Source: Bolinopsis microptera (Eukaryota > Ctenophora > Tentaculata > Lobata > Bolinopsidae). Taken from it: a DNA stretch of 64,000 nt. This document shows positions 1,981 to 36,700 of this stretch, piece by piece (the first letter of the stretch is position 1; each line of letters begins with the position of its first letter). The notes beneath the pieces were generated by a model that saw only the letters and a program-made list of their open reading frames with translations, did no database searches and was not told where the DNA came from. The position numbers and the translations under genes were made by a program. The stretch lies in contig NC_087080.1 in NCBI RefSeq assembly GCF_026151205.1, positions 1,318,268-1,382,267 of the forward strand, read 5' to 3'.

Positions 1981-3648
1981 ACATCTCATTAGAAGAAGCG
2001 GAGATATACGATGAACTACTCAGTCCCAACTCCCTCCTCGGAGATATAATTCCCCCTGCTAACGATGATTTCTACGACGAGAAGAAAGATAAGCTGATAC
2101 CCAAAGAGCTGCATGCATACAAGTTCTTCAAAGAAATACAGATAAACAAACAAAGGCAACATCCACTCAAGAAGCAGATGACTGTTAACTATTTCAGACC
2201 TTTTGAGAAAGAGAATATTGCTTTGGATTATGATACTCAAATGTCGGTAAGTTTACCAGCCAGCCAGAAACTAGTGCTCCTATTTAAATATACTCATATC
2301 CGTAGTATAGCTTATAGCACTTTTAACTTTACCCGTCTCTAACCGAACACATAATCTTTCTTTCTTATCTAACTAAACACTTTCTCTTTCTTTCTAAACT
2401 AACTAAACACTTTCTCTTTCTTTCTTCTGTAATCAAACACTTTCTCTTTCTTTCTTCTCTAATCAAACACTTTCTCTTTCTTTCTAAACTAACTAAACAC
2501 TTTCTCTTTCTTTCTTCTCTAATCAAACACTTTCTCTTTCTTTCTTCTCTAACCAAACACTTTCTCTTTCTTATCTAACTAAACATTTGTTCTAACTTTC
2601 AGTTGGATGATAAAGAGTTAGTAAAGACTCCAGAGTTAGTTTTACAAATAGCCATGTACAAGGAAGCTAAGATGGTTAAAACTAAAGGAGTGTTCGTGTT
2701 AGCTTCTCAGACTATTGCAGAGTTTGTGGATGCTATTGACTGTACTATGGATCTAGCTCTGTGCTGGCAAGACAACTGGTTACCATAGTTACACTACTAG
2801 TTATTTAACTAATAACACACTATTTTCTTCAATTCTTCAATTTTCTTTACATTACGACAATCCACATTATTCTACTTGACATTTATAAGGTTACTTTCAG
2901 TAAGATCTAATTGTGGCTGTCTTCATTTAAGTGACAATCCACTTACACTAGTAGTTGCACTGCTAGCAACCATAGTTACACAACTAATTGCCATGGTTAC
3001 CATTTCAGTGATAATCCAATGTTAGAAGACGTTGACTGGAACTCTAAAACCAGGACCTCCTCCGCAATCTTCCTGGACGACACTATTTATATAGACAAAC
3101 GTAACCCCGGTTACGTGGATTACTCAGTGGAGATTATAAAGTTTCTAGAAATGCACGCGGGCAATTTAAACCGTGGTCAGCAGCCCATTACTAAAACTGA
3201 GGACATATCCGAAACAAGGTTTATGGATCTGGAGCTTCACCTGGGACTGCCCTATGTATTCATTCACCAGGGAGGCTGTGAACATTTGATAGTGATAGAG
3301 CAGATCAGACTGTTTCACCCGGGGGATGACCCGCGCGTAGTGAACTATCCGCGTCAAGTTTTCCGCAGCGGGCCGCGCAGATTATCCTGTGGTATTTGTA
3401 ATGAGCGGTTTGCACGGTGGATCACTTTCAACGACGAAGACGCTCCCAGTAGTCCATGTTACTTTTGTTTTGAGTGTTTCTACATGCTCCACTACTCAGC
3501 AGACTGTGAGAGGCTGAATGATTTTAACGCGTATGTTTATTTGGAGAATATGGACGATAGGGTAGGTTACCAGGTGGCTTTGCAGAAGTTTAAAGACAGT
3601 GTTAAAGTACCGGAATTAGTCAAGAAAGAGGTAGAAAATAGTAGTTGA
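1981..3648 (+). CDS. SNAPC3: snRNA-activating protein complex subunit 3, C-terminal exons (partial)
   Basis: SNAPC3 (SNAP50/PTF-beta) is the DNA-contacting core subunit of the complex that binds the proximal sequence element of snRNA genes and recruits Pol II or Pol III. Three exons join in frame: 1981-2246, 2603-2778 and 3009-3648, all with GT donors and AG acceptors. Family features seen are the GVFVLASQTIAEFVDAI segment in the middle exon. The zinc-binding C-terminus follows, with HQGGCEH, then CGIC, then CYFCFECF and LHY, in the family's order. The stop is followed by AT-rich DNA. The 5' exons, including the start codon, are not visible: the region to the left is satellite plus a gap. The first exon shown enters with two bases of a codon. 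The aminotransferase gene starts about 300 bp downstream on the same strand. Confidence 0.9.
2335..2595. repeat. intronic pyrimidine-rich array (CTTTCTCTTTCTTTCT plus spacer)
   Basis: About nine units of roughly 30 bp combine CTTTCTCTTTCTTTCT with CTAACTAAACA or CTAATCAAACA. The array fills most of the SNAPC3 intron between exons ending at 2246 and starting at 2603. It merges into the 3' splice site, so it supplies an over-long polypyrimidine tract. A 63-codon reverse open frame across it is an artefact. Confidence 0.8.
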
Positions 3649-3952: not shown

Positions 3953-6900
3953 ATGTTGCGAACAGTTCAACAGTCGCTTTGTTGCCATGGTAACCGCTGT
4001 CTGTCTAACTTTGCTCCTGCTCAGAGAATCATTGTAAGTAAAGTTCCATATTTTACAAGAATGACGGATAATAATCACAACACCTATAATCTAGGTATAC
4101 TTTTAAAGCCTGACTTAGGGGTCGTTCATATATTACGTAATCACTTTTTGGAACATTTTTACCCCCCCCCCCTCCGTTATCAGTTTTACACATTGCTATT
4201 GTGTCAAAATTACACTAGCGGAATCATGCGGAACCCCCCCCCCCCCCCCCCCCCCCCAGCCTCCTCAGCTGATTACGTAATATTATGTGAACGACCCCTT
4301 ATTAACGTTTTTATTCTCTAATTTCAGGGTCACGAGAAGAACCTCTGGGTGGAATACTCCGCTCTAGCTATAAAACACAAAGCAGTGAATCTAGGACAGG
4401 GGTTTCCTGATTTTACTCCGCCTGAGTTCCTCAAGGAGGCCTGGAGTGATGCTGTCAACGTGCCCAGTGCTCATTGGTTAGTCTTATTATTAGTCCTACT
4501 CGGTTAGATGTTTTCACTTCGAGTATGTTTTCACTTAGAGTATGTTTTCACTTAGAGTATGTTTTCACTTCGAGTATGTTTTCACTTCAAGTATGTTTTC
4601 ACTTAGAGTATGTTTTCACTTAGAGTATGTTTTCACTTCGAGTATGTTTTCACTTCGAGTATGTTTTCACTTCGAGTATGTTTTCACTTAGAGTATGTTT
4701 TCACTTAGAGTATGTTTTCACTTAGAGTATGCATTATGATAACATTGAATAAAGTGCTCTTTGAAACTAACTCACTGGTCAGGTACACAAGAGGTCAAGG
4801 CTACCCCCGGCTAGTTAACGCACTGTCAGAAATGTACAGTCCCGAACTCGGACGTCAGATAGACCCCATGACAGAGATAATGACATCTGTAGGAGCGTAC
4901 GAGTCTCTCTACGCTGCTCTTACTGCCTTTACTGATCCTGGGGATGAAGTTAGCGAGATATTATTTTTAATTAATTATTAAGTAAAACAACTTATATTAG
5001 TTATTAAATAAAACAACTTGTTATTATTTCAGTCCCGTGTCTTTGTCATCTTTAACAGAGTTGGTGGTATGAATGATGAATTGTAAGCTATTTACTGAAA
5101 CTAAATAAATTTCACAAAATGTCATTATTATAATAATATGTTAAATATTTAAATATTTAAAACCACAATATTTCTCAGGTGATACTGATAGAACCCCACT
5201 TTGATAGTTACTCAGTAGTAGTGGAAGTTTGCGGAGGTAAGCCTGTGTACGTCCCCCTAAAACCAGACGGAGACCCTACAAACGCAAACAACTGGGTCCT
5301 GGACAAGGCTGAGTTTGAGGGAGCGTTCACCAGCAAGACAAAGTTACTGATGGTGAATACTCCTCACAACCCCATTGGCAAGTTGTTTAGTGCGGAGGAG
5401 ATGGAGTTTATTGCAAGGACCTGCGAGAAACACAATGTTATCATCGTCAGTGACGAGGTTTGTTGTACCGTCTTTCTTCAAGGTTTCATTTGTAAAACCC
5501 CTTATTTTATATCCCATCCCTTAATCTTATCCCATCCCTTGGCCTTATCCCGTCCCTTATCCCACCCTTTTATCCCACCCCTTATCAGTATCCATTATCC
5601 CATCCCATCCGTTATCCCATCCCTTGTCCCATCCCTTATACAGTTATACCATCCCTTATCAGTAACCCTCATCCCATCCCTTATCCCATCCCTTATCAGT
5701 ATCCCTTATCCCATCCCTTATCCCATCCCTTATTACTTTATTAAGTCCCCCGGAGGGGTATATAATTCCCCCTCACTAGGTATATGAGCGCTGTGTGTTC
5801 CCTGGGCACGTGCACCATCGTATAGCTAATGCGCCGGGAGGGTGGGAGCGCACTGTAACTGTGGGTAGCGCTGGGAAGAGCTTCTCAATGACAGGGTATA
5901 AGTTGGGATGGGCCATTGGGCCTGAGGAGCTGATCTCTAAACTGCAGACTGTACATCAGACTGCTGTCTACTCGGCTCCTACTATCTTACAGGGTAATTA
6001 ACATAATACAGGGTAATTAACATAATACAGGGTAATTATTATATATATTTAATTATTATTTTAGTTAAAATAATTATGTTAACGTGATTCTTGCAGGGTC
6101 TTCAGTTTCCATTATTTTTCAAACACTTCTTCTTTTAAACCTTGAACTTAAGGAATTGTAGTGTTGCTTACTAACTCTTCTAGAGGTGATAGCGCGATGT
6201 GTAGAGAGGGAAATAGAACTTAAAGGACAAGAGCAATCTTATCACTCCCAATTATCAAAGGTATTTCACTGCTGAACTTAGTCTGTGATGGAAATTTTAT
6301 TCTGCGAAATATGTTTAATTTCGTCCTCAACGTCTTGGTCGTTTATTTTCGTAATATTATGTTCTTTAAACTTACATTTTTTGTCGCAGTGTCTTATAAA
6401 ATTTATTTAACCTATCCCCTCCGATTTCAACTAATACGCCGTACTGTGAATAAACGTATCCCGTTAGATAATGGAGAAAGGCTGTAGCGAGATAATATCA
6501 GCGTGCGGAGATGCGGGGTTGAGTGTGGTAGAGCCCTTTGGGGGTTACTTTATCCTGGTCGATACTTCACCTCTGGGATTGGAATTTGATACTTCTCAGG
6601 TATGTGGCGGAGATATTGGTGTATTATATTTGAGTATCGTTTGTATTAAATTTGTGCGGTTTTACTGTGGAGTTTTCATGCATTGAGCTTAAGCAGGTAG
6701 GCAATATTGTGGGCATTAAATATTACTGTTCTCGTGATATGCTTAACCCAGTTGTTCAATGTTCACATGTACTTTTAGTTAACATGTACCAACTACCCAG
6801 GTTGCATATGATATACAATGTGCCCAATGGTTAACGGAACACATGAAGTTAGCTGGTATTCCCCTGAGTCTCTTCTTCGGTAAAAACAAGCACCTTTCCG

Positions 6901-6986
6901 AGAAATACCTGCGTCTCTGTTTTGCTAAATCCGAACAGACTTTGAAGATTGGAGGTGATATTATTAGAGATATTGTGGCAAAGTGA
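3953..6986 (+). CDS. KYAT: kynurenine aminotransferase / cysteine-S-conjugate beta-lyase, 8 exons
   Basis: This is a PLP-dependent class I/II aminotransferase that turns kynurenine into kynurenic acid and also acts on cysteine conjugates. Exons: 3953-4033, 4328-4476, 4783-4948, 5179-5457, 5780-5993, 6184-6260, 6468-6599, 6801-6986. They sum to 1284 nt (427 aa), with every phase matching. Family motifs in order are VNLGQGFPDFTPPEF, YTRGQGYP, the VGAYESLYAA cofactor loop, DEVILIEPHFDSY, NTPHNPIGK, VSDEVYE, and SAGKSFSMTGYKLGW with the Schiff-base lysine in GSAGKS. FGGYFILVD and a C-terminal IPLSLFFGKN..LRLCFAK complete it. It looks closer to KYAT3 than KYAT1 (TRGxGxP, GAYxSL). The N-terminal 27 residues (MLRTVQQSLCCHGNRC...) are basic and lack acidic residues, which suggests mitochondrial import. 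In this gene the YTRG motif follows W where vertebrates have Q. Confidence 0.92.
4118..4298. mobile_element. PIF/Harbinger-type MITE in KYAT intron 1
   Basis: Terminal inverted repeats begin GGGGTCGTTCATAT on the left and end ATGTGAACGACCCC on the right, each followed inward by a TTACGTAATCA-like block. The flanking trinucleotide TTA at 4115-4117 and 4299-4301 is a perfect target-site duplication, as PIF/Harbinger elements make. There is no coding capacity, and long C-runs are inside. A related copy sits at 11960-12125. Confidence 0.85.
4507..4731. repeat. 17-bp array in KYAT intron 2
   Basis: About 13 tandem copies of a 17-bp unit (AGAGTATGTTTTCACTT), alternating with TCGAGTATGTTTTCACT variants. 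The array occupies most of the intron between exons ending at 4476 and starting at 4783. Confidence 0.9.
5511..5740. repeat. CCCATCCCTTAT array in KYAT intron 4
   Basis: Irregular tandem copies of CCCATCCCTTAT with interspersed CAGTAT / CAGTAA variants, inside the intron between exons ending at 5457 and starting at 5780. It is pyrimidine-rich on the coding strand and ends about 40 bp before the acceptor. Confidence 0.85.
5986..6043 (+). repeat. three copies of an exon end plus splice donor (KYAT exon 5)
   Basis: The exon-5 end and donor, TTACAGG|GTAATTAAC, is followed by two further copies of ACAGGGTAATTAACATAAT. Three tandem potential 5' splice sites therefore lie at 19-bp spacing. I chose the first because it keeps phase with exon 6 (CAG G|AG GTG gives Q-E-V). 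The same duplication style is far more extreme in the SnoaL-like gene at 28143-35879. Confidence 0.75.
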
Positions 6987-14690: not shown

Positions 14691-16146
14691 TCATTGCAAT
14701 TTCCGCCAATATCTCTTGTCATAACTCAAATTACGGAGATAATGCAGGTCAAAGATATTATTTAAATAAAGATTTCTTTTACATAAATCATGCACAATCA
14801 GCGAGAATAGATTGCTTTGGGGTCTTCCTCTTCTCCCTGGTAAGTCCAGTGTATTGATGGCAAAAATGAGGGAAGAAAACGCTGGTCCGTCAATAGGACC
14901 CCGCAAAACATGTCCTAACATTCTCCACCGACTACGGGCCACTTTTTCTGACAATGGTTCAGCATTGCAGCGTTTATACAAGTTTTTGTTGGAGATGACT
15001 CCTGGGTACTTTATATTCAAAATAGTGCGAAGATGTCTGCGGTGAACAACATCTAGTTTTTCAAGGAATATTTTGGGGACGGCCCAACAGGATGAGTTGT
15101 ACATAAGAACCGATACGACTAAAGCATTATACAGTATTAGACGTTTGTTTAGGGGCAGTTTATCACTCCAGGCCTTCTTGTAATTGTTAAAGGCAGCATA
15201 TCCCAGGTTTATGCGACGCTGAATATCAGCTTTGCTACACAAGACGGACCCTAGAGTGATACTTTTCCTCCATGCTTCATTCCCCGACACTAATTTTCCA
15301 TCACTGTCGACTTCACCCGTACTAGCTAAATAAACATGAGTGAAGTCCGTTTTGTCTTCATTGACAAAGAGGTTCCATTTCTCGAGTATAGCTGTTGCCT
15401 GGGGCAAAATAGCTCTCAAGTTGTCTTCCTCTTCATCATTGAAGTCAACATCATCAGCATATTCAGTGTCAAGTGGAAGGCCAGCAATAGTAATCGGGGG
15501 GATCGGCCTATCTAAACTGATTGTTATAGTCCATCTAAGTTCATTCAAAGCACCAGCCAAGACAAGGGTGAACAGACAGCCGGATAGACAGTCACCCTGG
15601 AAAGCTCCAAGGAGACTTAAAAACTCGGCTGAAAGAACTCCATTTACCTTCACCCGTAGCTTTGTGTTGGACAACAACAACCGGACAATCCTCAGCTCAT
15701 CCTCAGTACAGCCACACAGTTTCAGGAGTTCAAGAATCGTAGTGCGTTTGATCGTGTCAAATGCACTAGACATATCAATGCCCATGCGATGATACTCCCA
15801 TTTCTTTCTTTGGACAACTGACAGTAGAACTCGCTGACACCAAACAATATCAGCACAAGAACGAGCGCGTTTATATGCGCACTGCCATGGACCAGTGAAG
15901 GCGTTCACTTTTTCTTCTATCCTTTTAAGAGTAGCCATAGACAGAATTTTTCTGGCTGCATTGGACAAGGTGAGTGGACGTAAATTCTTCAGAGGACCAA
16001 TAGGTTTTTTTGGCTTCTGTAAGGGTGTTATAGTAGCCTCTCCAATGGAAATGGGGAAAGTATGTGTCTCGAAACAACTGTTGATGATTCCAGCATAATG
16101 TTCATGGACTGTACTATTAGAGTACTGATGTAATAATAATAAATAA
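14691..16146 (-). mobile_element. 5'-truncated non-LTR retrotransposon reverse transcriptase
   Basis: Open frame from about 16146 down to the stop at 14691. It continues upstream of the first methionine through HEHYAGIINSCFETHTFP and PLKNLRPLTLSN. Reverse transcriptase motifs in order are GIDMSSAFDTI (motif A aspartate), GAFQGDCLSGCLFTLVL (motif B, an unusual form of the usual PQGxxLSP) and LDTEYADDVDF (motif C, YADD). A C-terminal segment with RWRMLGHVLRGP and GRRGRP is typical of LINE tails. The catalytic aspartates are present, but the N-terminal endonuclease domain and ORF start are absent. The 5' edge abuts a TAATAATAAATAAATG simple sequence, as in ordinary 5'-truncated LINE copies. Confidence 0.85.
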
Positions 16147-16568
16147 ATGTTTCACAGCTTGGCAATTGATCGGTGTAGTTGGTGTTGTACAGTGTACACG
16201 AGCGTGCTAAATCACTCTACAGTCGATCTTCGAGATTTTTCTAAAACGGCACCCGGCAGTTGAAACCAATTTGAATCGATGTATTTTTGGACGCTGATTT
16301 CGAATCAACCCCCATGACAATGACATAGGGTTAAAATGCTCCCCTGGCGAGATATTAGCGAAAAACTGTCTAGATCACGTGATATGACCGTATAAGGAAG
16401 CTGGTCTAATTTTTGTTAGGGTTAGAGTTTCAGTGTATGCTTTTCTTAAAGATTGGGTTAGGGTTAGGGTTGGGATCAGATTAGAGGACTAGGATTTCGA
16501 ATAGTCATTTAGGGCCAGCTAGAGAACGTGTTTAAAAAGTCACGTGACAGTCGAGTGTAGAGTGATTA

Positions 16569-20643: not shown

Positions 20644-20940
20644 ATTGGCTAACAAAAGACAAGGGTAAAAGGGTTGCGCAAAGTATAATGCTGGGAACTG
20701 GAGATTCAGGACGGAACTGTACGCTTTTAAACAACTGATCCAGGACTGTGATATAAATCCGATCAAAAAGTAATCTCATGGGATTCACATTACAATAACT
20801 ACTAGTACAATAACTTGATAGCTATGGAACTTCTGGAGCGTTTACTCGTTAGAGAGCAGATTTACAATTTCTTTTCTTCAGGAATATGGGTAAATTCATT
20901 AAATATGCGATATGAATTAGATTATTATGCGTGATCTGCG

Positions 20941-23900
20941 TACAGTACACTGATTGGTTAATAGCAGTCACGTGTTCTGCGTACAGTACACTGATTGGTT
21001 AATAGCAGTCACGTGTTCTGCGTACATTACACTGATTGGTTAATAGAAGTCATGTGTTCTGCGTACAGTACACTGATTGGTTAATAGCAGTCACGTGTTC
21101 TGCGAACAGTACACTGATTGGTTAGTTGCAGTCACGTGTTCTGCGTACAGTACACTGATTGGTTAATAGCAGTCACATGTTCTGCGTACAGTACACTGAT
21201 TGGTTAATAGCAGTCACATGTTCTGCGTACAGTACACTGATTGGTTAATAGCAGTCACGTGTTCCGCGTACAGTACACTGATTGGTTAATAGCAGTCACG
21301 TGTTCTGCGTACAGTACACTGATTGGTTAATAGCAGTCACGTGTTCAGCGTACAGTACACTGATTGGTTAATAGCAGTCACGTGTTCTGCGTACAGTACA
21401 CTAATTGGTTAATAGCAGTCACGTGTTTTGCGTACAGTACACTGATTGGTTAATAGCAGTCACGTGTTTTGCGTATAGTACACTGATTGGTTAATAGCAG
21501 TCACGTGTTCTGCGTACAGTACACTGATTGGTTAATAGCAGTCACGTGTTCTGCGTACAGTACACTAATTAGTTAATAGCAGTCACTTGTTCTGCGTACA
21601 GTACACTGATTGGTTAATAGCAGTCACGTGTTTTGCGTATAGTACACTGATTGGTTAATAGCAGTCACGTGTTTTGCGTATAGTACACTGATTGGTTAAT
21701 AGCAGTCATGTGTTCTGCATACAGTACACTGATTGATTAATAGCAGTCACGTGTTCTGCGTACAGTACACAGATTGGTTAATAGCAGTCACGTGTTCTGC
21801 GTACAGTACACTGATTGGTTAATAGCAGTCACGTGTTCTGCGTCCAGTACACTGATTGGTTAATAGCAGTCACGTGTTCTGCGTACAGTGCACTAATTGG
21901 TTAATAGCAGTCACGTGTTCTGCGTACAGTACACTGATTGGTTAATAGCAGTCACGTGTTCTGCGTCCAGTACACTGATTGGTTAATAGCAGTCACGTGT
22001 TCTGCGTACAGTACACTGATTGGTTAATAGCATTCACTTGTTCTGCGTACAGTACACTGATTGGTTAATAGCAGTCACGTGTTCTGCGTCCAGTACACTG
22101 ATTGGTTAATAGCAGTCACGTGTTCTGCGTACAGTACACTGATTGGTTAATAGCAGTCACATGTTCCGCGTACAGTACACTGATTGGTTAATAGCAGTCA
22201 CATGTTCCGCGTACAGTACACTGATTGGTTAATAGCAGTCACGTGTTCTGCGTACAGTACACTGATTGGTTAATAGCAGTCACGTGTTCTGCGTACAGTA
22301 CACTGATTGGTTAATAGCAGTCACGTGTTCTGCGTACAGTACACTGATTGGTTAATAGCAGACACCTGTTCTGCGTACAGTACACTGATTAGTTAATAGC
22401 AGTCACGTGTTCTGCGTACAGTACATTGATTGGTTAATAGCAGTCACGTGTTCTGCGTACAGTACACTGATCGGTTAATAGCAGTCATGTGTTCTACGTA
22501 CAGTACACTAATTGGTTAATATAGCAGTCACGTGTTCTACGTACAGTACACTAATTGGTTAATAGCAGTCACGTGTTCTGCGTACAGTACACTGATTGGT
22601 TAATAGCAGTCACGTGTTCTGCGTCCAGTACACTGATTGGTTAATAGCAGTCACGTGTTCTGCGTACAGTGCACTAATTGGTTAATAGCAGTCACGTGTT
22701 CTGCGTACAGTACACTGATTGGTTAATAGCAGTCACGTGTTCTGCGTACAGTACACTGATTGGTTAAAAGCAGTCACGTGTTCTGCGTCCAGTACACTGA
22801 TTGGTTAATAGCAGTCACGTGTTCTGCGTACAGTACACTGATTGGTTAATAGCATTCACTTGTTCTGCGTACAGTACACTGATTGGTTAATAGCAGTCAC
22901 GTGTTCTGCGTACAGTACACTGATTGGTTAATAGCAGTCACGTGTTCTGCGTACAGTACACTGATTGGTTAATAGCAGTTACGTGTTCTGCGTACAATAC
23001 ACTGATTGGTTAATAGCAGTCACGTGTTCCGCGTACAGTACACTGATTGTTTAATAGCAGTCACGTGTTCTGCGTACAGTACACTGATTGGTTAATAGCA
23101 GTCACGTGTTCTGCGTACAATACACTGATTGGTTAATAGCAGTCACGTGTTCCGCGTACAGTACACTGATTGTTTAATAGCAGTCACGTGTTCTGCGTCC
23201 AGTACACTGATTGGTTAATAGCAGTCACGTGTTCTGCGTCCAGTACACTGATTGGTTAATAGCAGTCACGTGTTCTGCGTACAGTACACTGATTGGTTAA
23301 TAGCATTCACTTGTTCTGCGTACAATACACTGATTGGTTAATAGCAGTCACGTGTTCCGCGTACAGTACACTGATTGGTTAATAGCAGTCACGTGTTCTG
23401 CGTACAGTACACTGATTGGTTAATAGCAGTCACGTGTTCTGCGTACAATACACTGATTGGTTAATAGCAGTCACGTGTTCTACATACAGTACACTGATTG
23501 TTTAATAGCAGTCACGTGTTCTGCGTACAGTACACTGATTGGTTAATAGCAGTCACGTGTTCCGCGTACAGTACACTGATTGGTTAATAGCAGTCACGTG
23601 TTCTGCGTACAGTACACTGATTGGTTAATAGCAGTCACGTGTTCTGCGTACAGTACACTGATTGGTAAATAGCAGTCACGTGTTCCGCGTACAGTACACT
23701 GATTGGTTAATAGCAGTCACGTGTTCTGCGTACAGTACACTGATTGGTTAATAGCAGTCACGTGTTCTGCGTACAGTACACTGATTGTTTAATAGCAGTC
23801 ACGTGTTCTGCGTACAGTACACTAATTGGTTAATAACAGTCACGTGTTCTGCGTACAGTACACTGATTGGTTAATAGCAGTCACGTGTTCTGCGTACAGT

Positions 23901-26490
23901 ACACTGATTGGTTAATAGCTGTCACGTGTTCTGCGTACAGTACACTGATTGGTTAATAGCAGTCACGTGTTCTGCGTACAGTACACTGATTGGTTAATAG
24001 CAGTCACGTGTTCCGCGTACAGTACACTGATTGGTTAATAGCAGTCACGTGTTCTGCGTACAGTACACTGATTGGTTAATAGCAGTTACGTGTTCTGCGT
24101 ACAGTACACTGATTGGTAAATAGCAGTCACGTGTTCCGCGTACAGTACACTGATTGGTTAATAGCAGTCACGTGTTCTGCGTACAGTACACTGATTGGTT
24201 AATAGCAGTCACGTGTTCTGCGTACAGTACACTGATTGGTTAATAGCAGTCACGTGTTCTACGTACAGTACACTGATTGGTTAATAGCAGTCACGTGTTC
24301 TGCGTACAGTACACTAATTGGTTAATAGCAGTCACGTGTTTTGCGTACAGTACACTGATTGGTTAATAGCAGTCTAGTGTTCTGCGTACAGTACACTGAT
24401 TGGTTAATAGCAGTCACGTGTTCTGCTTAAATTACATTGATTGGTTAATAGCAGTCACTTGTTCTGCGTACAGAACACTGATTGGTTAATAGCAGTCACG
24501 TGTTCTGCGTACAGTACACTGTTTGGTTAATAGCAGTCACGTGTTCTGCGTACAGTACACTGATTGGTTAATAGCAGTTACGTGTTCTGCTTAAATTACA
24601 TTGATTGGTTAATAGCAGTCACGTGTTCTGCGTACAGTACACTGATTGGTTAATAGCAGTCACGTGTTCTGCGTACAGTACACTGATTGGTTAATAGCAG
24701 TCACGTGTTCTGCGTACAGTACACTGATTGGTTAATAGCAGTCACGTGTTCTGCGTACAGTACACTGATTGGTTAACAGCAGTCACGTGTTCTGCGTACA
24801 GAACACTGATTGGTTAATAGCAGTCACGTGTTCTGCGTACAGAACACTGATTGGTTAATAGCAGTCACGTGTTCTGCGTACAGTACACTGATTGGTTAAT
24901 AGCAGTCACGTGTTCTGCGTAAATTACACTAATTGGTTAATAGCAGTCACATGTTCTGCATACAGTACACTGATTGGTTAATAGCAGTCACTTGTTCTGC
25001 GTACAGTACACTGATTGGTTAATAGCAGTTACGTGTTCTGCGTACAGTACACTGATTGGTTAATGGCAGTCACTTGTTCTGCGTACAGTACACTGATTGG
25101 TTAATAGCAGTCACGTGTTCTGCGTACAGTACACTGATTGGTTAATAGCAGTCACGTGTTCTGCGTACAGTACACTGATTGGTTAATAGCAGTCACGTGT
25201 TCTGCGTACAGTACACTAATTGGTTAATAGCAGTCACGTGTTCTGCGTACAGTACACTGATTGGTTAATAGCAGTCACGTGTTCTGCGTAAATTACACTA
25301 ATTGGTTAATAGCAGTCACGTGTTCTGCGTACAGTACACTGATTGGTTAATAGCAGTCACGTGTTCTGCGTAAATTACACTGATTGGTTAATAGCAGTCA
25401 CGTGTTCAGCGTACAGTACACTGATTGGTTAATAGAAGTTACGTGTTCTGCGTACAGTACACTGATTGGTTAATAGCAGTCACGTGTTCTGCGTACAGTA
25501 CACTGATTGGTTAATAGCAGTCACGTGTTCTGCGTAAATTACACTGATTGGTTAATAGCAGTCACGTGTTTTGCGTACAGTACACTGATTGGTTAATAGC
25601 AGTCACGTGTTCTGCGTAAATTACACTAATTGGTTAATAGCAGTCACATGTTCTGCATACAGTACACTGATTGGTTAATAGCAGTCACTTGTTCTGCGTA
25701 CAGTACACTGATTGGTTAATAGCAGTCACGTGTTCTGCGTACAGTACACTGATTGGTTAATAGCAGTCACGTGTTCTGCGTACAGTACACTGATTGGTTA
25801 ATAGCAGTCACGTGTTCTGCGTAAATTACACTAATTGGTTAATAGCAGTCACTTGTTCTGCGTACAGTACACTGATTGGTTAATAGCAGTCACTTGTTCT
25901 GCGTACAGTACACTGATTGGTTAATAGCAGTCACGTGTTCTACGTACAGTACACTGATTGGTTAATAGCAGTCACGTGTTCAGCGTACAGTACACTGATT
26001 GGTTAATAGCAGTCACGTGTTCTGCGTACAGTACACTAATTGGTTAATAGCAGTCACGTGTTCTGCGTACAGTACACTGATTGGTTAATAGCAGTCACAT
26101 GTTCCGCGTACAGAACACTGATTGGTTAATAGCAGTCACGTGTTCCGCGTACAGTACACTGATTGGTTAATAGCAGTCACGTGTTCTGCATACAGTACAC
26201 TGATTGGTTAATAGCAGTCACGTGTTCTGCGTACAGTACACTGATTGGTTAATAGCAGTCACGTGTTCTGCGTACAGTACACTGATTGGTTAATAGCAGT
26301 CACGTGTTTGCGTACAGTACACTGATTGGTTAATAGCATTCACGTGTTCTGCGTACAGTACACTGATTGGTTAATAGCAGTCACGTGTTCTGCGTACAGT
26401 ACACTGATTGGTTAATAGCAGTCACGTGTTCTGCGTACAGTACACTGATTGGTTAATAGCAGTCACGTGTTCTGCGTACAGTACACTGAA
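20941..26490. repeat. 41-bp minisatellite, 135 units, most with ATTGG and CACGTG
   Basis: The unit includes TACAGTACACTGATTGG, TTAATAGCAG and TCACGTGTTCTGCG. The first TACAGTACAC begins at 20941 and the last at 26477. The distance of 5536 bp equals 135 units of 41 bp with one 2-bp insertion (near 22520) and one 1-bp deletion (near 26305). Most units keep an inverted CCAAT box (ATTGG) and the palindromic E-box CACGTG. The commonest variants (CACATG, CATGTG) are CpG transitions. The array lies upstream of the small precursor gene (minus strand) and about 1.6 kb upstream of the SnoaL-like gene. No open frame is credible. Confidence 0.97.
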
Positions 26491-27700
26491 AAAGTATTGT
26501 ACTTTTTCAGTGAGGTAACACAATAAAGCTGTGTATCATTGCGATGTTATGTGGTATGTATTATATATACAATTATGTGTTATCTTTTAATAACAATGAT
26601 AATCTGCACTTGTGACTATCACTTGTATAATATAGCCTCTATTGGGGTTCGTGGTGGTATCAGGTTGCCATGCCGCCATGGTGATGTGGTTATTATAGTC
26701 GGTAGTTCATCATCATCACCACTGGTTATGCTTTTAGTTTAATAAACTTTCTATTGATGATGTTGTTATGCTTTTAGTTTTCCAGTCGTAGTTCTGTTTG
26801 TCACAAATTATAGGCGCTGGTTTTTGACACAACAAAAACATGTTGGAATATCACGTGACAGGGGGGTTTGTAAAATCGTAGTATAATTTCTAAACACTAG
26901 TATATCTATTAAAGTGTTAATACGTGATTATGCAACGGATCCCGAAGGACATTCTGATTTCTGCGGCGTTTTACATAATGAACGAGTAGCTTTGAAACAA
27001 TTGAAAAATAATTAGGCACCACTAATTGACCACTAATTTACCACTAATTTACCACTAATTTACCACTTAAGATTTAGTGACTGACCTCATCTCGATTACA
27101 GACCACAAAAAACCGTTTCTCCTGCAAAGTTCACCTCATCAGTAATTACTTTTTAATTACTCAGAATATTTTTGCTAAGTAAGTAGATTGCTGGAAACGT
27201 AAGAATTCTCAATTTCTAACTGTAGTTACTTTGTAGACGTGAGTTCATGGCTGAATTCTCCAAAGACGGACTTAAGATTAGTGTTCTTATAAGTTAGTTC
27301 CGTGTTTCGCACGTGTTTCGCACGTGTTTCGCACGTGTTTCGCACGTTAACTGAACTTTGTCGTTGGGAAAATATTGATCTTTTTAACTTAAACTCTGAC
27401 GTATATCAGAGATCCCTATTTCGCTATTTAGTACATAATATACAATGTACAGTAAAACTTTAACTCTGATTTACCACGCCCCAATTTACTGCAAACCCCG
27501 GTTTACCGCGGGCATTTCCTTCCCCAAATAGGACTTGACAATGTGATCAAGTTGACATACATTAAATCAACAACAAAAAACCCAATTCCTCGAACCCCGA
27601 TTTACCGTGTAGACTTTCCCAAAAACTCAGCGGTAAATAGTAGTTTTAGTGTAGTAAGGAGTTGTAGTAGTTTTGAGCTGAATGTTTTGAGCTGAATGGG
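26491..27700. other. unique AT-rich sequence after the 41-bp array
   Basis: No gene is recognised. A CACTGAAAAAGTATTGTACTTTTTCAGTG hairpin forms exactly at the right edge of the 41-bp array (about 26487-26515). A TTCGCACGTG-type 11-bp repeat of four units lies near 27304-27347. ACTAATTTACC repeats lie near 27025-27065. Confidence 0.55.
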
Positions 27701-28142: not shown

Positions 28143-31100
28143 ATGCCGTTACCGTGGTCAGAAGTGTGCGACCCCTCAGATGGATACACTCCCCGGTGGA
28201 GTGGAACTGAGGAGTTTATAGAGGACATTACCTACAGAATATGGGAGAAAGGGGACCGGGAATTTATAAAGGAAACGTACAGTGATACCTGTCCTGTAAT
28301 AGCTTTATCAGGTTGTTATAAAGGAAACGTACAGTGATACCTGTCCTGTGATAGCTTTATCAGGTTGTTATAAAGGAAACGTACAGTGATACCTGTCCTG
28401 TAATAGCTTTATCAGGTTGTTATCTGTAGTGATACCTGTCCTGTAATAGCTTTATCAGGTTGTTATCTGTAGTGATACCTGTCCTGTAATAGCTTTATCA
28501 GGTTGTTATCTGTAGTGATACCTGTCCTGTAATAGCTTTATCAGGTTGTTATAAAGGAAACGTACAGTGATACCTGTCCTGTAATAGCTTTATCAGGTTG
28601 TTATAAAGGAAACGTACAGTGATACCTGTCCTGTAATAGCTTTATCAGGTTGTTATCTGTAGTGATACCTGTCCTGTAATAGCTTTATCAGGTTGTTATC
28701 TGTAGTGATACCTGTCCTGTAATAGCTTTATCAGGTTGTTATCTGTAGTGATACCTGTCCTGTAATAGCTTTATCAGGTTGTTATAAAGGAAACGTACAG
28801 TGATACCTGTCCTGTAATAGCTTTATCAGGTTGTTATCTGTAGTGATACCTGTCCTGTAATAGCTTTATCAGGTTGTTATCGTTACAGTGATACCTGTCC
28901 TGTAATAGCTTTATCAGGTTGTTATCTTACAGTGATACCTGTCCTGTAATAGCTTTATCAGGTTGTTATCTTACAGTGATACCTGTCCTGTAATAGCTTT
29001 ATCAGGTTGTTATTTTACAGTGATACCTGTCCTGTAATAGCTTTATCAGGTTGTTATCGTTACAGTGATACCTGTCCTGTAATAGCTTTATCAGGTTGTT
29101 ATAAAGGAAACGTACAGTGATACCTGTCCTGTTATAACTTTATCAGGTTGTTATCGTTACAGTGATACCTGTCCTGTAATAGCTTTATCAGGTTGTTATC
29201 GTTACAGTGATACCTGTCCTGTAATAGCTTTATCAGGTTGTTATCTTACAGTGATACCTGTCCTGTAATAGCTTTATCAGGTTGTTATCGTTACAGTGAT
29301 ACCTGTCCTGTAATAGCTTAGCTTTATCAGGTTGTTATAAAGGAAACGTACAGTGATACCTGTCCTGTTATAACTTTATCAGGTTGTAATCGTTACAGTG
29401 ATACCTGTCCTGTAATAGCTTTATCAGGTTGTTATCGTTACAGTGATACCTGTCCTGTAATAGCTTTATCAGGTTGTTATCTTACAGTGATACCTGTCCT
29501 GTAATAGCTTTATCAGGTTGTTATAAAGGAAACGTACAGTGATACCTGTCCTGTAATAACTTTATCAGGTTGTTATAAAGGAAACTTACAGTGATACCTG
29601 TCCTGTAATAGCTTTATCAGGTTGTTATAAACGTACAGTGATACCTGTCCTGTAATAACTTTATCAGGTTGTTATCGTTACAGTGATACCTGTCCTGTAA
29701 TAGCTTTATCAGGTTGTTATCGTTACAGTGATACCTGTCCTGTAATAGCTTTATCAGGTTGTTATCGATTGTGCTCTTAGTAAGATGAGATTGAGAACTA
29801 ACACATATTATACTGCCGTTTACAGCAGTATACTATCAATATACATTCTCCCTGCTTCAATATTGGTGACTAAATTCTCCGAGCAGAAAGTCTTATGTTA
29901 TATTCGGTTAGGATGCAATTATTTATGAGTCGGATTGTTTATTATTAAAATTTGAGTTGAAAGTAAGTTTTAAGTTAACTTGCAGGTAACTGTGAGGGAG
30001 CAGACACGATACTAAAAAACACTACAGTAACTATAGTAACTGTAGTTAACTATAGTAACTATAGTAACTATAGTAACTATAGTAACTATAGTAACTATAG
30101 TAACTATAGTAACTATAGTAACTATAGTAACTATAGTAACTATAGTAACTGTAGTTAACTGTAGTAACTGTACTCTGTAGTTAACTGTAGTATCTGTTGC
30201 TATAGTAACTGTAATAACATGTTGTTACTTTGACAGGTAACTGCGAGGGAGCAGACACGATACTAAAGAACACTACAGATCTACTGGAACAGTTCCCTGA
30301 CAGAACGCTCTACCCCTGTGATATACTGTGGAACGGTAACAACACAGCGGGTTACCACTCTTCCCAACTCATCAGTACAAAGTGCACTTATCATCACACT
30401 AACTCTGCGGGGAGTCAGTACAGTTGGGCCTCTCACCTCAAGCAAGCTCGGATATGGGTTAGTAATTATAGAAATTATAGAAATTAGAAAGATCTGTACA
30501 GTTAAACACGTGTGTCAGATCAAAACTGAAGATTTAAAAGAAAATAATCTCAGTAATCAAACAGAAAATAAAAGGAACGATTTCAAGATGAACTCTGATT
30601 ACTGAGACTTCAAAAATCACAGCTTACTTTTAGGAAATCTTTCACGAAATAAGTTGCAAGTAACATTTCTAGTCTCAAGAATGTGGGTCTCTTCGAATTA
30701 TTCACTGTAGTAACTATAGTATTAGTAACTATAGTAACTATAGTATAACTATAGTAACTATAGTAACTGTTGCTATAGTAACTGTAGTAACTGTAGTTTA
30801 CTGTATTAGCTATAGTAACTGTTGCTATAGGAACTGTAGTAACTGTTGCTATAGTAACTGTAGTAACATGTTGCTATTTTGACAGGTAATAGTACACCGT
30901 ATAGTAACTATAGTAACTGTAGTAACTGTTACTATAGTAACTGTAGTAACATGTTGTTACTTTGACAGGTAATAGTACACCGTGTAGTAACTATAGTAAC
31001 TACAGTAACTGTAGTAACTGTTGCTATAGTAACTGTAGTAACATGTTGTTACTTTGACAGGTAATAGTACACCGTGTAGTAACTATAGTAACTATAGTAA

Positions 31101-34100
31101 CTGTAGTAACTGTTGCTATAGTAACTGTAGTAACATGTTGTTACTTTGACAGGTAATAGTACACCGTGTAGTAACTATAGTAACTGTAGTAACTGTTGCT
31201 ATAGTAACTGTAGTAACATGTTGTTACTTTGACAGGTAATAGTACACCGTGTAGTAACTATAGTAACTATAGTAACTATAGTAACTGTAGTAACCGTTGC
31301 TATAGTAACTGTAGTAAAATGTTGTTACAGGTAATAGTACACCGTGTAGTAAAGGACGGTGTGATATTGCGGGAGTGGGTAGTGAGTGATAACAAGAGTC
31401 TGTACCAGCAGTTAAGAGTGAACCAGGAGGAGGTGGCTACACGTTGCGCGGAGAAGTGGCTCAAGGATAAACTGGATCCGGAGAAGAGCGAGTTTTGTCA
31501 TCTCAGGTTTAATTTTAAAATTTAAATTTTCAATTTACAGTTTTATTCCGCATATTTTCAATTCTGATCGAATTTATTGCATCTCATTCAAGTTTTTTTC
31601 ATTGAACTGATGTTTAGCCAAAACGAGTCCATTTTGGTAATTACATGTAAAATTCCTGTTTAATTCTTAATTCCTATCATCTCAGTTGGCTGGCAGCAGA
31701 GTTCCAGCGGGTTCAGAACACGGGGAGTATCGGAGGGGACATCAGGTTAAACCTGCAAAACATAACACCCGCTCAGCGGCCCATGTATCAGTACTTAGGT
31801 CAGAGGGTGGCTAAAATTTACCACAGAGCGTGGGGACCTGAGGGGATGGGGTCCCGGGGCAAGTTTGAGGAGCTGGTGAAACTATTGTACCACCCTCACG
31901 CCAGGTTTGAAACTATTGTACCACCCTCACGCCAGGTTTGAAACTATTGTACCACCCTCACGCCAGGTTTGAAACTATTGTACCACCCTCACGCCAGGTT
32001 TGAAACTATTGTACCACCCTCACGCCAGGTTTGAAACTATTGTACCACCCTCACGCCAGGTTTGAAAATATTGTACCACCCTCACGCCAGGTTTGAAACT
32101 ATTGTACCACCCTCACGCCAGGTTTGAAACTATTGTACCACCCTCACGCCAGGTTTGAAACTATTGTACCACCCTCACGCCAGGTTTGAAACTATTGTAC
32201 CACCCTCACGCCAGGTTTGCAACTATTGTACCACCCTCACGCCAGGTTTGAAACTATTGTACCACCCTCACGCCAGGTTTGAAACTATTGTACCACCCTC
32301 ACGCCAGGTTTGAAACTATTGTACCACCCTCACGCCAGGTTTGAAACTATTGTACCACCCTCACGCCAGGTTTGAAACTATTGTACCACCCTCACGCCAG
32401 GTTTGAAACTATTGTACCACCCTCACGCCAGGTTTGAATCTATTGTACCACCCTCACGCCAGGTTTGAATCTATTGTACCACCCTCACGCCAGGTTTGAA
32501 ACTATTGTACCACCCTCACGCCAGGTTTGAAACTATTGTACCACCCTCACGCCAGGTTTGAAAATATTGTACCACCCTCACGCCAGGTTTGAAACTATTG
32601 TACCACCCTCACGCCAGGTTTGAAACTATTGTACCACCCTCACGCCAGGTTTGAAACTATTGTACCACCCTCACGCCAGGTTTGAAACTATTGTACCACC
32701 CTCACGCCAGGTTTGAAACTATTGTACCACCCTCACGCCAGGTTTGCAACTATTGTACCACCCTCACGCCAGGTTTGAAACTATTGTACCACCCTCACGC
32801 CAGGTTTGAAACTATTGTACCACCCTCACGCCAGGTTTGAAACTATTGTACCACCCTCACGCCAGGTTTGAAACTATTGTACCACCCTCACGCCAGGTTT
32901 GAAACTATTGTACCACCCTCACGCCAGGTTTGAAACTATTGTACCACCCTCACGCCAGGTTTGAATCTATTGTACCACCCTCACGCCAGGTTTGAATCTA
33001 TTGTACCACCCTCACGCCAGGTTTGAAACTATTGTACCACCCTCACGCCAGGTTTGAAACTATTGTACCACCCTCACGCCAGGTTTGAAAATATTGTACC
33101 ACCCTCACGCCAGGTTTGAAACTATTGTACCACCCTCACGCCAGGTTTGAAACTATTGTACCACCCTCACGCCAGGTTTGAAACTATTGTACCACCCTCA
33201 CGCCAGGTTTGAAACTATTGTACCACCCTCACGCCAGGTTTGAATCTATTGTACCACCCTCACGCCAGGTTTGAAACTATTGTACCACCCTCACGCCAGG
33301 TTTGAAACTATTGTACCACCCTCACGCCAGGTTTGAAACTATTGTACCACCCTCACGCCAGGTTTGAAACTATTGTACCACCCTCACGCCAGGTTTGAAA
33401 CTATTGTACCACCCTCACGCCAGGTTTGAAACTATTGTACCACCCTCACGCCAGGTTTGAAACTATTGTACCACCCTCACGCCAGGTTTGAAACTATTGT
33501 ACCACCCTCACGCCAGGTTTGAAACTATTGTACCACCCTCACGCCAGGTTTGAAACTATTGTACCACCCTCACGCCAGGTTTGAAACTATTGTACCACCC
33601 TCACGCCAGGTTTGAAACTATTGTACCACCCTCACGCCAGGTTTGAAACTATTGTACCACCCTCACGCCAGGTTTGAAACTATTGTACCACCCTCACGCC
33701 AGGTTTGAAACTATTGTACCACCCTCACGCCAGGTTTGAAACTATTGTACCACCCTCACGCCAGGTTTGAAACTATTGTACCACCCTCACGCCAGGTTTG
33801 AAACTATTGTACCACCCTCACGCCAGGTTTGAAACTATTGTACCACCCTCACGCCAGGTTTGAAACTATTGTACCACCCTCACGCCAGGTTTGAAACTAT
33901 TGTACCACCCTCACGCCAGGTTTGAAACTATTGTACCACCCTCACGCCAGGTTTGAAACTATTGTACCACCCTCACGCCAGGTTTGAAACTATTGTACCA
34001 CCCTCACGCCAGGTTTGAAACTATTGTACCACCCTCACGCCAGGTTTGAAACTATTGTACCACCCTCACGCCAGGTTTGAAACTATTGTACCACCCTCAC

Positions 34101-35879
34101 GCCAGGTTTGAAACTATTGTACCACCCTCACGCCAGGTTTGAAACTATTGTACCACCCTCACGCCAGGTTTGAAACTATTGTACCACCCTCACGCCAGGT
34201 TTGAAACTATTGTACCACCCTCACGCCAGGTTTGAAACTATTGTACCACCCTCACGCCAGGTTTGAAACTATTGTACCACCCTCACGCCAGGTTTGAAAC
34301 TATTGTACCACCCTCACGCCAGGTTTGAAACTATTGTACCACCCTCACGCCAGGTTTGAAACTATTGTACCACCCTCACGCCAGGTTTGAAACTATTGTA
34401 CCACCCTCACGCCAGGTTTGAAACTATTGTACCACCCTCACGCCAGGTTTGAAACTATTGTACCACCCTCACGCCAGGTTTGAAACTATTGTACCACCCT
34501 CACGCCAGGTTTGAAACTATTGTACCACCCTCACGCCAGGTTTGAAACTATTGTACCACCCTCACGCCAGGTTTGAAACTATTGTACCACCCTCACGCCA
34601 GGTTTGAAACTATTGTACCACCCTCACGCCAGGTTTGAAACTATTGTACCACCCTCACGCCAGGTTTGAAACTATTGTACCACCCTCACGCCAGGTTTGA
34701 AACTATTGTACCACCCTCACGCCAGGTTTGAAACTATTGTACCACCCTCACGCCAGGTTTGAAACTATTGTACCACCCTCACGCCAGGTTTGAAACTATT
34801 GTACCACCCTCACGCCAGGTTTGAAACTATTGTACCACCCTCACGCCAGGTTTGAAACTATTGTACCACCCTCACGCCAGGTTTGAAACTATTGTACCAC
34901 CCTCACGCCAGGTTTGAAACTATTGTACCACCCTCACGCCAGGTTTGAAACTATTGTACCACCCTCACGCCAGGTTTGAAACTATTGTACCACCCTCACG
35001 CCAGGTTTGAAACTATTGTACCACCCTCACGCCAGGTTTGAAACTATTGTACCACCCTCACGCCAGGTTTGAAACTATTGTACCACCCTCACGCCAGGTT
35101 TGAAACTATTGTACCACCCTCACGCCAGGTTTGAAACTATTGTACCACCCTCACGCCAGGTTTGAAACTATTGTACCACCCTCACGCCAGGTTTGAAACT
35201 ATTGTACCACCCTCACGCCAGGTTTGAAACTATTGTACCACCCTCACGCCAGGTTTGAAACTATTGTACCACCCTCACGCCAGGTTTGAAATTATTGTAC
35301 CACCCTCACGCCAGGTTTGAAACTATTGTACCACCCTCACGCCAGGTTTGAATCTATTGTACCACCCTCACGCCAGGTTTGAAACTATTTTACCACCCTC
35401 ACGCCAGGTTTGAATCTCCACAAACAAACAGCACCGATTGTACGGGGTGGACGGAGTTGACTTGCTTGTATGATACGTTTATTCTTGGTGGCCAGCAGGG
35501 TAAAGAAGTGATCATGACACTGGACTGGGTCATCATTAAACCTGGTCACGACAGAAGGAAGATTTTAACGAACGGAGCCACACCAAACGCCTGGAGATAC
35601 CCCTATCCTGAGGATGTTAACCTCCAAATGGAGCTGGAGAGTAAGTTTGCCAACTCTGACCAGGTATCAGAGTCCTTCACCATGTCTATAAGATGGTGTT
35701 TGGTGGGCTACCAGAAGCAAGAAAACCCTGATATTTTAGTGCCGTTGGTGCTGTTGGCGGAGTCGCATTTGGATTGTGTGGGTTTCAGAGTTATACGGGA
35801 CATTACTGTTTACGATAGGGTGGCTGTAGATGCCCAGGTTAAGCTAACTACTGAAGTTGTTCATAATGTAATAATATAA
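28143..35879 (+). CDS. two-domain SnoaL-like (NTF2-fold) protein, 5 exons split by tandem arrays
   Basis: Exons 28143-28311, 30237-30457, 31331-31506, 31686-31904 and 35408-35879 join with matching phases into 418 aa. The first half resembles SnoaL-like/ester-cyclase domains of bacteria: FIEDITYRIWEKGDREFIKETY, PVIALSGNCEGADTIL, NTTDLLEQFPDRTLYPCDILW, GYHSSQLISTKCTYHH, then VKDGVILREWVVSDN and QQLRV. The second half repeats the fold: VAKIYHRAWGPEG, LVKLLYHPHARFE, GWTELTCLYDTFILGG, and MSIRWCLVGYQ. SnoaL-type folds form a cone-shaped pocket for small hydrophobic substrates; the reaction here is unknown. There is no signal peptide, so it is probably cytosolic. The stop at 35877-35879 follows an array-bearing exon end. 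A copy 800 bp downstream reads HNVQF-stop, which may be the older C-terminus. The splice model rests on phase and homology, not on RNA data. Confidence 0.78.
28275..29766 (+). repeat. array of about 32 copies of exon-1 end plus splice donor
   Basis: Each unit contains GTGATACCTGTCCTGTAATAGC followed by TTTATCAG|GTTGTTAT. It thus repeats the last 30-odd coding bases of exon 1 and its 5' splice site. Linkers vary (AAAGGAAACGTACA, CTGTA, CGTTACA, CTTACA), so units are 39-52 bp long. The first donor, at 28312, is assumed in the gene model. Any other would add exon-like repeats and mostly break the frame. Confidence 0.93.
29985..30236 (+). repeat. partial copy of exon-2 start, then a TATAGTAAC array
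   Basis: The acceptor and beginning of exon 2 (CAG|GTAACTGTGAGGGAGCAGACA...AACACTACAG) appear first at 29984-30025. They then dissolve into about 13 copies of TAACTATAG, and appear again intact at 30231 as the real exon. The array therefore seems to have grown between two copies of the exon start. Confidence 0.85.
30700..31336 (+). repeat. five decoy copies of exon-3 acceptor within TATAGTAAC repeats
   Basis: TTGACAG|GTAATAGTACACCGT, the 3' splice site plus first codons of exon 3, occurs about every 75-90 bp near 30882, 30964, 31056, 31148 and 31231. The used copy follows at 31331. Spacers are TAGTAACTATAG and TGTAGTAACTGTTGC repeats. Only the last copy continues into AAGGACGGTGTG, the conserved coding sequence. 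Confidence 0.9.
31905..35407 (+). repeat. intron made of 113 exact-length 31-bp units carrying AG|GT
   Basis: The unit consists of TTTGAAACTATTGTACC followed by ACCCTCACGCCAGG. The span between the first and last AG|G junction is 3503 bp, which is 113 x 31 with no net indel. Variation is limited to a few A/T or A/C changes (GAATCTATT, GAAAATATT, GCAACTATT), and runs of identical units exceed 40. Since 31 is not a multiple of three the array cannot be translated. Splicing from any unit's CAG|GTTTGA to the final CCAG|G restores GCC-AGG-TTT-GAA (A-R-F-E). Confidence 0.97.
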
Positions 35880-36700
35880 TAACTGTAGTAACTATAGTAA
35901 CTGTTGCTATAGTAACTGTTGCTATAATAACTGCTATAGTAACTGCTATAGTAACTGTAGATGCCCAGGTTAAGCTAACTACTGAAGTTGTTCATAATGT
36001 AATAATATAATAACTGTAGTAACTATAGTAACTGTTGCTATAGTAACTGTTGCTATAGTAACTGTTGCTATAGTAACTGTTGCTATAGTAACTGTTATAG
36101 TAACTGTAGATGCTCAGGTTAAGCTAACTACTGAAGTTGTTCATAATGTAATAATATAATAACTGTAGTAACTATAGTAACTGTTGCTATAGTAACTGTT
36201 GCTATAGTAACTGTTGCTATAGTAACTGTAGATGCCCAGGTTAAGCTAACTACTGAAGTTGTTCATAATGTAATAATATAATAACTGTAGTAACTATAGT
36301 AACTGTTGCTATAGTAACTGTTGCTATAGTAACTGTTGCTATAGTAACTGTTGCTATAGTAACTGTTGCTATAGTAACTGTTGCTATAGTAACTGTTGCT
36401 ATAGTAACTGTTGCTATAGTAACTGTTGCTATAGTAACTGTAGATGCCCAGGTTAAGCTAACTACTGAAGTTGTTCATAATGTAATAATATAATAACTGT
36501 AGTAACTATAGTAACTGTTGCTATAGTAACTGTTGCTATAGTAACTGTTGCTATAGTAACTGTTGCTATAGTAACTGTTGCTATAGTAACTGTTGCTATA
36601 GTAACTGTTGCTATAGTAACTGTTGCTATAGTAACTGTTGCTATAGTAACTGTAGATGCTCAGGTTAAGCTAACTACTGAAGTTGTTCATAATGTTCAGT
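35830..36700 (+). repeat. six copies of the gene's 3' coding end separated by ACTGTTGCTATAGTA arrays
   Basis: GTAGATGCCCAGGTTAAGCTAACT...GAAGTTGTTCATAATGT occurs six times between 35826 and 36692. The spacers are TAATAATATAATAACTGTAG plus 2 to 9 copies of a 15-bp TATAGTAACTGTTGC unit. The final copy ends HNVQF-stop instead of HNVII-stop, which I take as the pre-expansion C-terminus. Confidence 0.92.

Follow-up and report, generated by a model that had tools for sequence, protein, structure and literature searches.

Our analysis of 64,000 nucleotides of the ctenophore Bolinopsis microptera (C9:1318268-1382267 of a 264.65-Mb genome in 232 contigs; hereafter the window) indicates that a coding gene is interrupted by exactly 113 head-to-tail copies of a 31-bp piece of its own exons, and suggests that this array is an intron. 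We propose that an exonic segment bearing AGGT was duplicated, that it expanded as a minisatellite, and that the result would be removed as an intron through dual-specific splice sites; judged from the sequence, we put the probability of this reading as a whole at about 0.68. Its parts are not equally firm. It is very likely that the array arose through tandem duplication of an exonic segment bearing AGGT, and its removal as an intron is likely, going by its splice sites and reading frame. The mechanism of duplication, the splicing, its completeness and the number of its steps are what we infer.

The exon model was obtained from tblastn with intronless paralogs together with a splice model and the spliced frame. 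The segments that matter for the argument are these:

28143-28311, forward strand: exon 1, with its ATG at 28143 and a 3' end reading ..CTTTATCAG (tblastn, splice model)
30237-30457, forward strand: exon 2 (tblastn, splice model)
31331-31506, forward strand: exon 3 (tblastn, splice model)
31507-31685, forward strand: intron 3, 179 bp (splice model)
31686-31904, forward strand: exon 4, whose last 28 bp are TGAAACTATTGTACCACCCTCACGCCAG (splice model)
31905-35407, forward strand: the array of 113 exonic units of 31 bp; putative intron 4, phase 2, GT..AG, with CAG|GT at each junction
33269-35283, forward strand: array core, units 45-109, apparently the most recently expanded or homogenised part
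35377-35407, forward strand: unit 113, the last and the only one with G14>T, holding the acceptor that would have to be used
35408-35879, forward strand: exon 5 with the stop codon (tblastn, splice model, dN/dS)

With all 113 units removed, the gene has five exons, four GT-AG introns and an intact frame of 418 codons; none of the five coding segments or four introns is damaged. The flanks of the array, VKLLYHPHA and RFESPQTNS, are coding, as the first-pass annotation had supposed in calling them conserved, and they are adjacent in three intronless paralogs. The predicted junction of exons 4 and 5 reads GAGCTGG...CACGCCAG|GTTTGAATCTCC, and the unique exon 4 sequence upstream of the last 28 bp is GAGGAGCTGG. 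For the collapsed coding sequence the ratio of nonsynonymous to synonymous divergence (dN/dS) is ~0.16; compared with the paralogs, exon 4 has dN 0.23-0.24 and dS 0.91-1.02, exon 5 has dN 0.15-0.16 and dS 1.17-1.45, and purifying selection is seen on both sides of the array. The spliced product, 68% identical to one paralog, appears weakly to resemble SnoaL-like proteins (Pfam SnoaL, E 0.0032, 17.7 bits against a curated cut-off of 28.4; SnoaL_2, E 0.048). A PDB search gave one match, a putative polyketide cyclase at E 0.33, while an NCBIfam search of the product returned zero matches and exons 4 and 5 alone matched zero Pfam families.

Tandem Repeats Finder (TRF) reports a period of 31 bp and 114.1 copies over 31877-35414 with a score of 6985, which puts a chance origin out of the question and bears out the earlier count of 3503 bp as 113 x 31. 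The unit, GTTTGAAACTATTGTACCACCCTCACGCCAG, is composed of GTT, the first 3 bp of exon 5, followed by the last 28 bp of exon 4, which are identical to it, and every one of the 3503 bases belongs to this exonic unit or to a one-base variant, with zero intronic sequence. One hundred of the 113 units are identical, and the other 13 have a single-base change at unit position 6, 8, 9 or 14; one variant unit has GTTTGAATCT in common with the exon 5 side. The clustering of the array's five distinct changes at positions 6-14 (P ~0.03) comes from a post-hoc simulation and is not used as evidence. Nor is the exact multiple of 31 independent evidence, since a tandem array inside an exon yields such a length automatically. 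CAG|GT stands at every unit junction (CAGGT occurs 112 times inside the array), and each unit contributes one AG, 113 in all. In 111 units the donor context reads GTTTGA, and in two it reads GTTTGC.

The history of the array can in part be read from its variants. Those we label B, C and DD appear again, in unchanged order and at a distance of 16-17 units, within units 6-39, and therefore part of the array grew by block copying. Units 45-109 are 65 consecutive identical units (2015 bp), so part of the growth or homogenisation was recent. The last four units include variants absent elsewhere in the array (units 110 and 113); in unit 113 the change G14>T, found in no other unit, lengthens the pyrimidine stretch before the last acceptor (0.75 against 0.70). 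This is a single event, and perhaps reflects an edge unit escaping homogenisation.

How could such an array have arisen? The collapsed exon has TGAA at offsets 191 and 222, two copies that flank the unit at a spacing of exactly 31 bp, and such a spacing would fit a single microhomology-mediated or slippage duplication followed by expansion. In the model that we propose, a 31-bp CAGGT-bearing coding segment would have been duplicated between two TGAA microhomologies in a once-uninterrupted exon, and the duplicate would then have expanded to 113 copies, partly by block copying of units. Each CAG|GT junction would serve as a dual-specific splice site, the acceptor of the preceding unit and the donor of the following one, and the spliceosome, working in a single step or through several recursive ones, would pair the first donor (31904|31905) with the last acceptor (35407|35408). 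Removal of all 113 units would restore the 418-aa protein, and the array would be an intron made purely of exon. The exonic-duplication origin is well supported because the unit is purely exonic, the paralogs are contiguous, the TGAA copies are 31 bp apart and the collapsed frame is intact; three of the features expected of intron gain by AGGT duplication are present, namely an exonic repeat bearing AGGT, uninterrupted paralogs (all three of those found), and a coding sequence restored by removal.

The intron-absence comparison was made with paralogs within one genome, where at least three were found, two on C8 and one on C10 (L009, L010 and L011). All three are single open frames of 417-419 codons in which YHPHARFESP runs uninterrupted through the array site, and their divergence from the window gene is dS ~1.25 and dN ~0.2. 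The C10 copy has ~1.43 kb in common with the C8 copies at ~97% identity, and the two C8 loci share much longer flanks. The paralogs have no upstream TGAA, and they have CCCGGTTTGAG in place of the window gene's CCAGGTTTGAA, so that they also have no AGGT. Intronlessness would be ancestral if the gene had come from bacteria; we considered such an origin and rejected it after two scans of bacterial and archaeal contigs, sensitive to close relatives only, gave zero relatives.

A collapse test was run on the window and 23 fetched loci, 287 kb together. Among its best 25 cases the focal array is the sole long one whose collapse clearly turns a broken frame open, leaving 85 and 156 open codons on its two sides, against 11 before collapse. 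A 14-bp, 2.1-copy case at 27670 gives 76 and 81 codons (27 before) and is doubtful, its downstream side being itself a repeat; a 15-bp, 2.3-copy case in locus L031 goes from 7 to 41 and 46. AGGT is not enriched in the minisatellites of the 23 loci and the window (period at least 15, at least 3 copies), occurring in 11 of 52 non-redundant arrays against 11.5 expected from shuffles, and we therefore make no genome-wide claim from it. Tandem repeats of at least 3 copies occupy 23,619 of the window's 64,000 bp (37%) versus 8,044 of 200,000 bp (4%) in twenty 10-kb stretches of C8. The window begins 1.3 Mb into contig C9. The longest array in the window, a 41-bp unit in ~136 copies at 20930-26489, lies outside the best 25 of the collapse test.

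Turning to removal, the pyrimidine content before the acceptor of the last unit is 0.75, equal to that of intron 3, and it is 0.55 and 0.45 for introns 1 and 2. In its ancestral form the focal site has 0.70, the highest among the 7 AGGT sites of the coding sequence; among the 103 AGs there with enough upstream sequence, two reach at least 0.70, the focal site included, and over the coding sequence and paralogs 1.7% of 416 AGs attain the last unit's 0.75. Put in terms of units, the coding sequence offers 1227 possible 31-bp segments, of which 217 (17.7%) contain AGGT and 28 (2.3%) contain AGGT with a tract this good. TTGAA, ~25 nt before the AG in the unit, is, judged by eye, a passable match to the branch-site consensus. 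The array also has two features of tandem-repeat introns with dual-specific sites, a length that is a multiple of the unit and AGGT at both ends, and its junctions have the juxtaposed AG|GT of ratchet points. An intron born by duplication and later expanded had been proposed at first pass; the exonic origin and the collapsed frame uphold this, and removal is likely only, as predicted from the sequence.

Unspliced, the frame meets a TGA at the start of the second unit. With no unit retained the product has 418 aa; with 1 to 7 retained, each computed, it is the same 273-aa product ending RFETIVPPSRQV, and truncation at residue 273 follows for more than 7 as well, because the stop comes directly after the first retained unit. 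Removal must therefore be complete. It had been claimed that the protein is the same whichever donor is joined to the last acceptor, which is false for a single splice because a later donor leaves units in the message. The claim holds only under further, recursive splicing that takes out the leftover units, and the AG|GT junctions would permit this.

Several observations weigh against the reading that we prefer. A single 31-bp copy breaks the frame and is far shorter than the nine other inferred introns, the shortest of which is 179 bp, so the first duplication was probably harmful and a fitness valley had to be crossed; probably it was harmful until more copies were present, or several copies arose at once, or it was sheltered by the paralogs. 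These paralogs, wholly intronless and closely alike, may be retrocopies or a mobile segment, and for that reason they alone are no proof that an earlier intron was absent; the content of the array, being entirely exonic unit, is the more direct evidence. Collapse of the array does not give an open reading frame of rare length, since at random points in the same sequences, uncollapsed, the 90th percentile is 70 codons and the 95th is 133, with our 85 between them. The telling point is the switch from a broken to an open frame and not the length. Set beside the general metazoan consensus, GTTTGA is a weak donor; in the window gene and a kynurenine-aminotransferase-like gene, six of the nine other inferred introns start with GTT, one of them with GTTTGT, and GTT donors are ordinary here. 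Furthermore, competition among 113 near-equal sites should yield many partial products, every one of them truncated. Finally, the intactness of exon 5 is not proof of splicing, because an array this homogeneous may be too young for decay to show even if splicing fails.

An unlikely alternative is that the array is a recent lesion, hardly or never removed, which leaves a 273-aa truncated protein or a decaying mRNA, with exon 5 a fresh relic and the paralogs as back-up. The stop that retained units bring at the start of the second unit, the youthful look of the array, the three open-frame paralogs on C8 and C10 and a region full of tandem repeats all agree with it. Against it stand the undamaged five coding segments and four GT-AG introns, the place of the unit among the best dual splice contexts of the coding sequence (28 of 1227) and the fact, though a single event, that a longer pyrimidine stretch occurs in the last unit and in no other. 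Another alternative, very improbable in our view, is that an older ordinary intron was overgrown by a boundary-spanning array of the 'mirage' type and lost its unique part. Boundary-spanning arrays do occur next to unique intron sequence in the neighbouring introns 1 and 2, and paralogs that are possibly retrocopies are compatible with an earlier intron; but all 3503 bases are exonic unit or one-base variant, the array has pure exon at either edge, and the unit is exactly accounted for by its two TGAA ends. It is hardly credible either that the copy number stems from faulty assembly and that the true locus has few copies or none: near-identical 31-bp units are hard to assemble, yet the variants B, C and DD are structured, in the same order 16-17 units apart, units 110 and 113 have variants unique in the array, and the array is gap-free, the sole run of N in the window being at 12-111.

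Two further candidates were tried and rejected. For an introner or introner-like element, a 300-bp query holding the unit gave at least 57 matches, 54 in the window gene and 3 in the paralogs, with none dispersed elsewhere in a genome search whose counts are lower bounds, very common words being skipped; the acceptor motif shared by introns 1 and 2 occurred 5 times with at most one mismatch, all in the window gene, and once in a backward control. An amphioxus-type mirage does not describe the focal array, whose unit is purely exonic and without intronic sequence.

Returning to duplication followed by removal, one may ask whether all 113 dual sites are live, so that a stepwise ratchet would always end in the same protein, the intron would be self-erasing and freely expandable, and, in this genome, the spread of minisatellites across exon edges would continually supply new introns. 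We regard this extension as quite doubtful; were it true, copy number would be nearly invisible to selection.

Known systems put these results in perspective. An exonic duplication in ATP2A1 was reportedly studied in Hellsten 2011. Duplications of the ATP2A1 type resemble ours in that the exonic duplicate supplies donor and acceptor and the protein is unchanged after removal, but there one duplication stands against 113 copies here, and the founder here, at 31 bp, is too short as an intron. The birth of introns is still debated on a small set of cases with known source sequence (PMC4974935). The AGGT-duplication model of intron birth has already been published (PMC4974935, PMC3443670), and expansion of repeat units with dual-specific splice sites (DSS) has been proposed as a route to new introns (PMC10809524); because both are in print, the array in the window is a case of a known kind. 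What is unusual is its copy number, its purely exonic content and its frame-breaking unit. We found no case with a comparable number of exonic copies in the literature searched, as excerpted, which is not a claim of absence.

Human DSS arrays share with ours a length that is an exact unit multiple and the same AGGT as 5' and 3' site, and in 45 of 77 the length is divisible by 3, hence frame-breaking cases exist (PMC10809524). In UBC, however, the units are coding monomers and their retention is harmless, whereas here the unit breaks the frame and adds a stop and the flanks are single-copy coding sequence; VCX3A has 8 repeats versus 113 (PMC10809524). The fission yeast genes SPOG_01682 and SOCG_00815 likewise gained introns made of tandem exon copies, of 24 nt, with proto-splice sites, and spliced expressed sequence tags exist for such introns, one of them disagreeing with the annotated intron (PMC3629103). 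They differ in that 24 nt is a multiple of 3 and the proto-site is AGGC (PMC3629103), and in that they span four and two duplicates (PMC4974935). The amphioxus mirages (Adh3, BflGb6 and BflGb9) are arrays at AG/GT boundaries, with 6 and 3 units in BflGb6, reported not to disturb splicing and proposed as an intron source; the focal array differs from them in having no intronic sequence and in interrupting an exon that is whole in the paralogs (PMC3087553). With recursive splicing the likeness lies in the juxtaposed AG|GT, by which the donor is rebuilt at each splice and stepwise removal is possible. Known ratchet points, though, mainly occupy long introns and depend on a cryptic exon that is then skipped (PMC8605326); in the array the following 31-nt unit, whose donor is equal, would have to play that part.

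In this array the source, the likely founder junction, the microhomology and the traces of growth can all still be read. Two questions could also be put to it as a natural test: how the spliceosome selects among 113 near-identical sites, and whether coding repeat expansions can be rendered harmless by dual-specific sites.

The focal array is not the only repeat at the exon edges of this gene. Counted as exact motifs with the original copy included, the others are:

28278-29765, forward strand: intron 1 donor array, 32 matches to the exon-1 end plus donor ATCAG|GTTGT; TRF periods 45, 52 and 233
29986-30266, forward strand: the exon-2 start, GTAACTGYGAGGGAGCAGACACGATACTAAA, present twice, at 29986 and 30237
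30704-31352, forward strand: intron 2 acceptor array, 6 matches to CAG|GTAATAGTACACCGT (exon-3 start)
35826-36695, forward strand: repeats of the exon-5 end and stop segment, 5 matches to GTAGATGCYCAGGTTAAG...AATATAA, in and after the last exon

Of these, the arrays at the intron 1 donor and the intron 2 acceptor span an exon boundary and fit the published description of amphioxus mirages (PMC3087553). Intron 3 ends in the same 9 bp (TCATCTCAG) as exon 3 and, on that resemblance, may also have been gained by a duplication or repair event; short direct repeats are predicted by the double-strand-break-repair model of intron gain (PMC3443670). A second gene with a donor-spanning array in the window is the kynurenine-aminotransferase-like gene at 4328-6986, its identity confirmed by a PDB search, where at 5988-6038 the exon end and donor TACAGG|GTAATTAACATAA are repeated 2.7 times.

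Elsewhere in the window there is a SNAPC3 segment at 2935-3645 on the forward strand (E 7.1e-49) and a reverse-transcriptase open reading frame at 14694-16151 on the reverse strand (RVT_1, E 3.9e-18). In the wider genome, several matches to ionotropic glutamate receptors (C9:7533364, C12:11782391-11809362, C6:9547809 and others) fall in single open frames of ~900 codons and thus represent apparently intronless receptor genes, some of them clustered.

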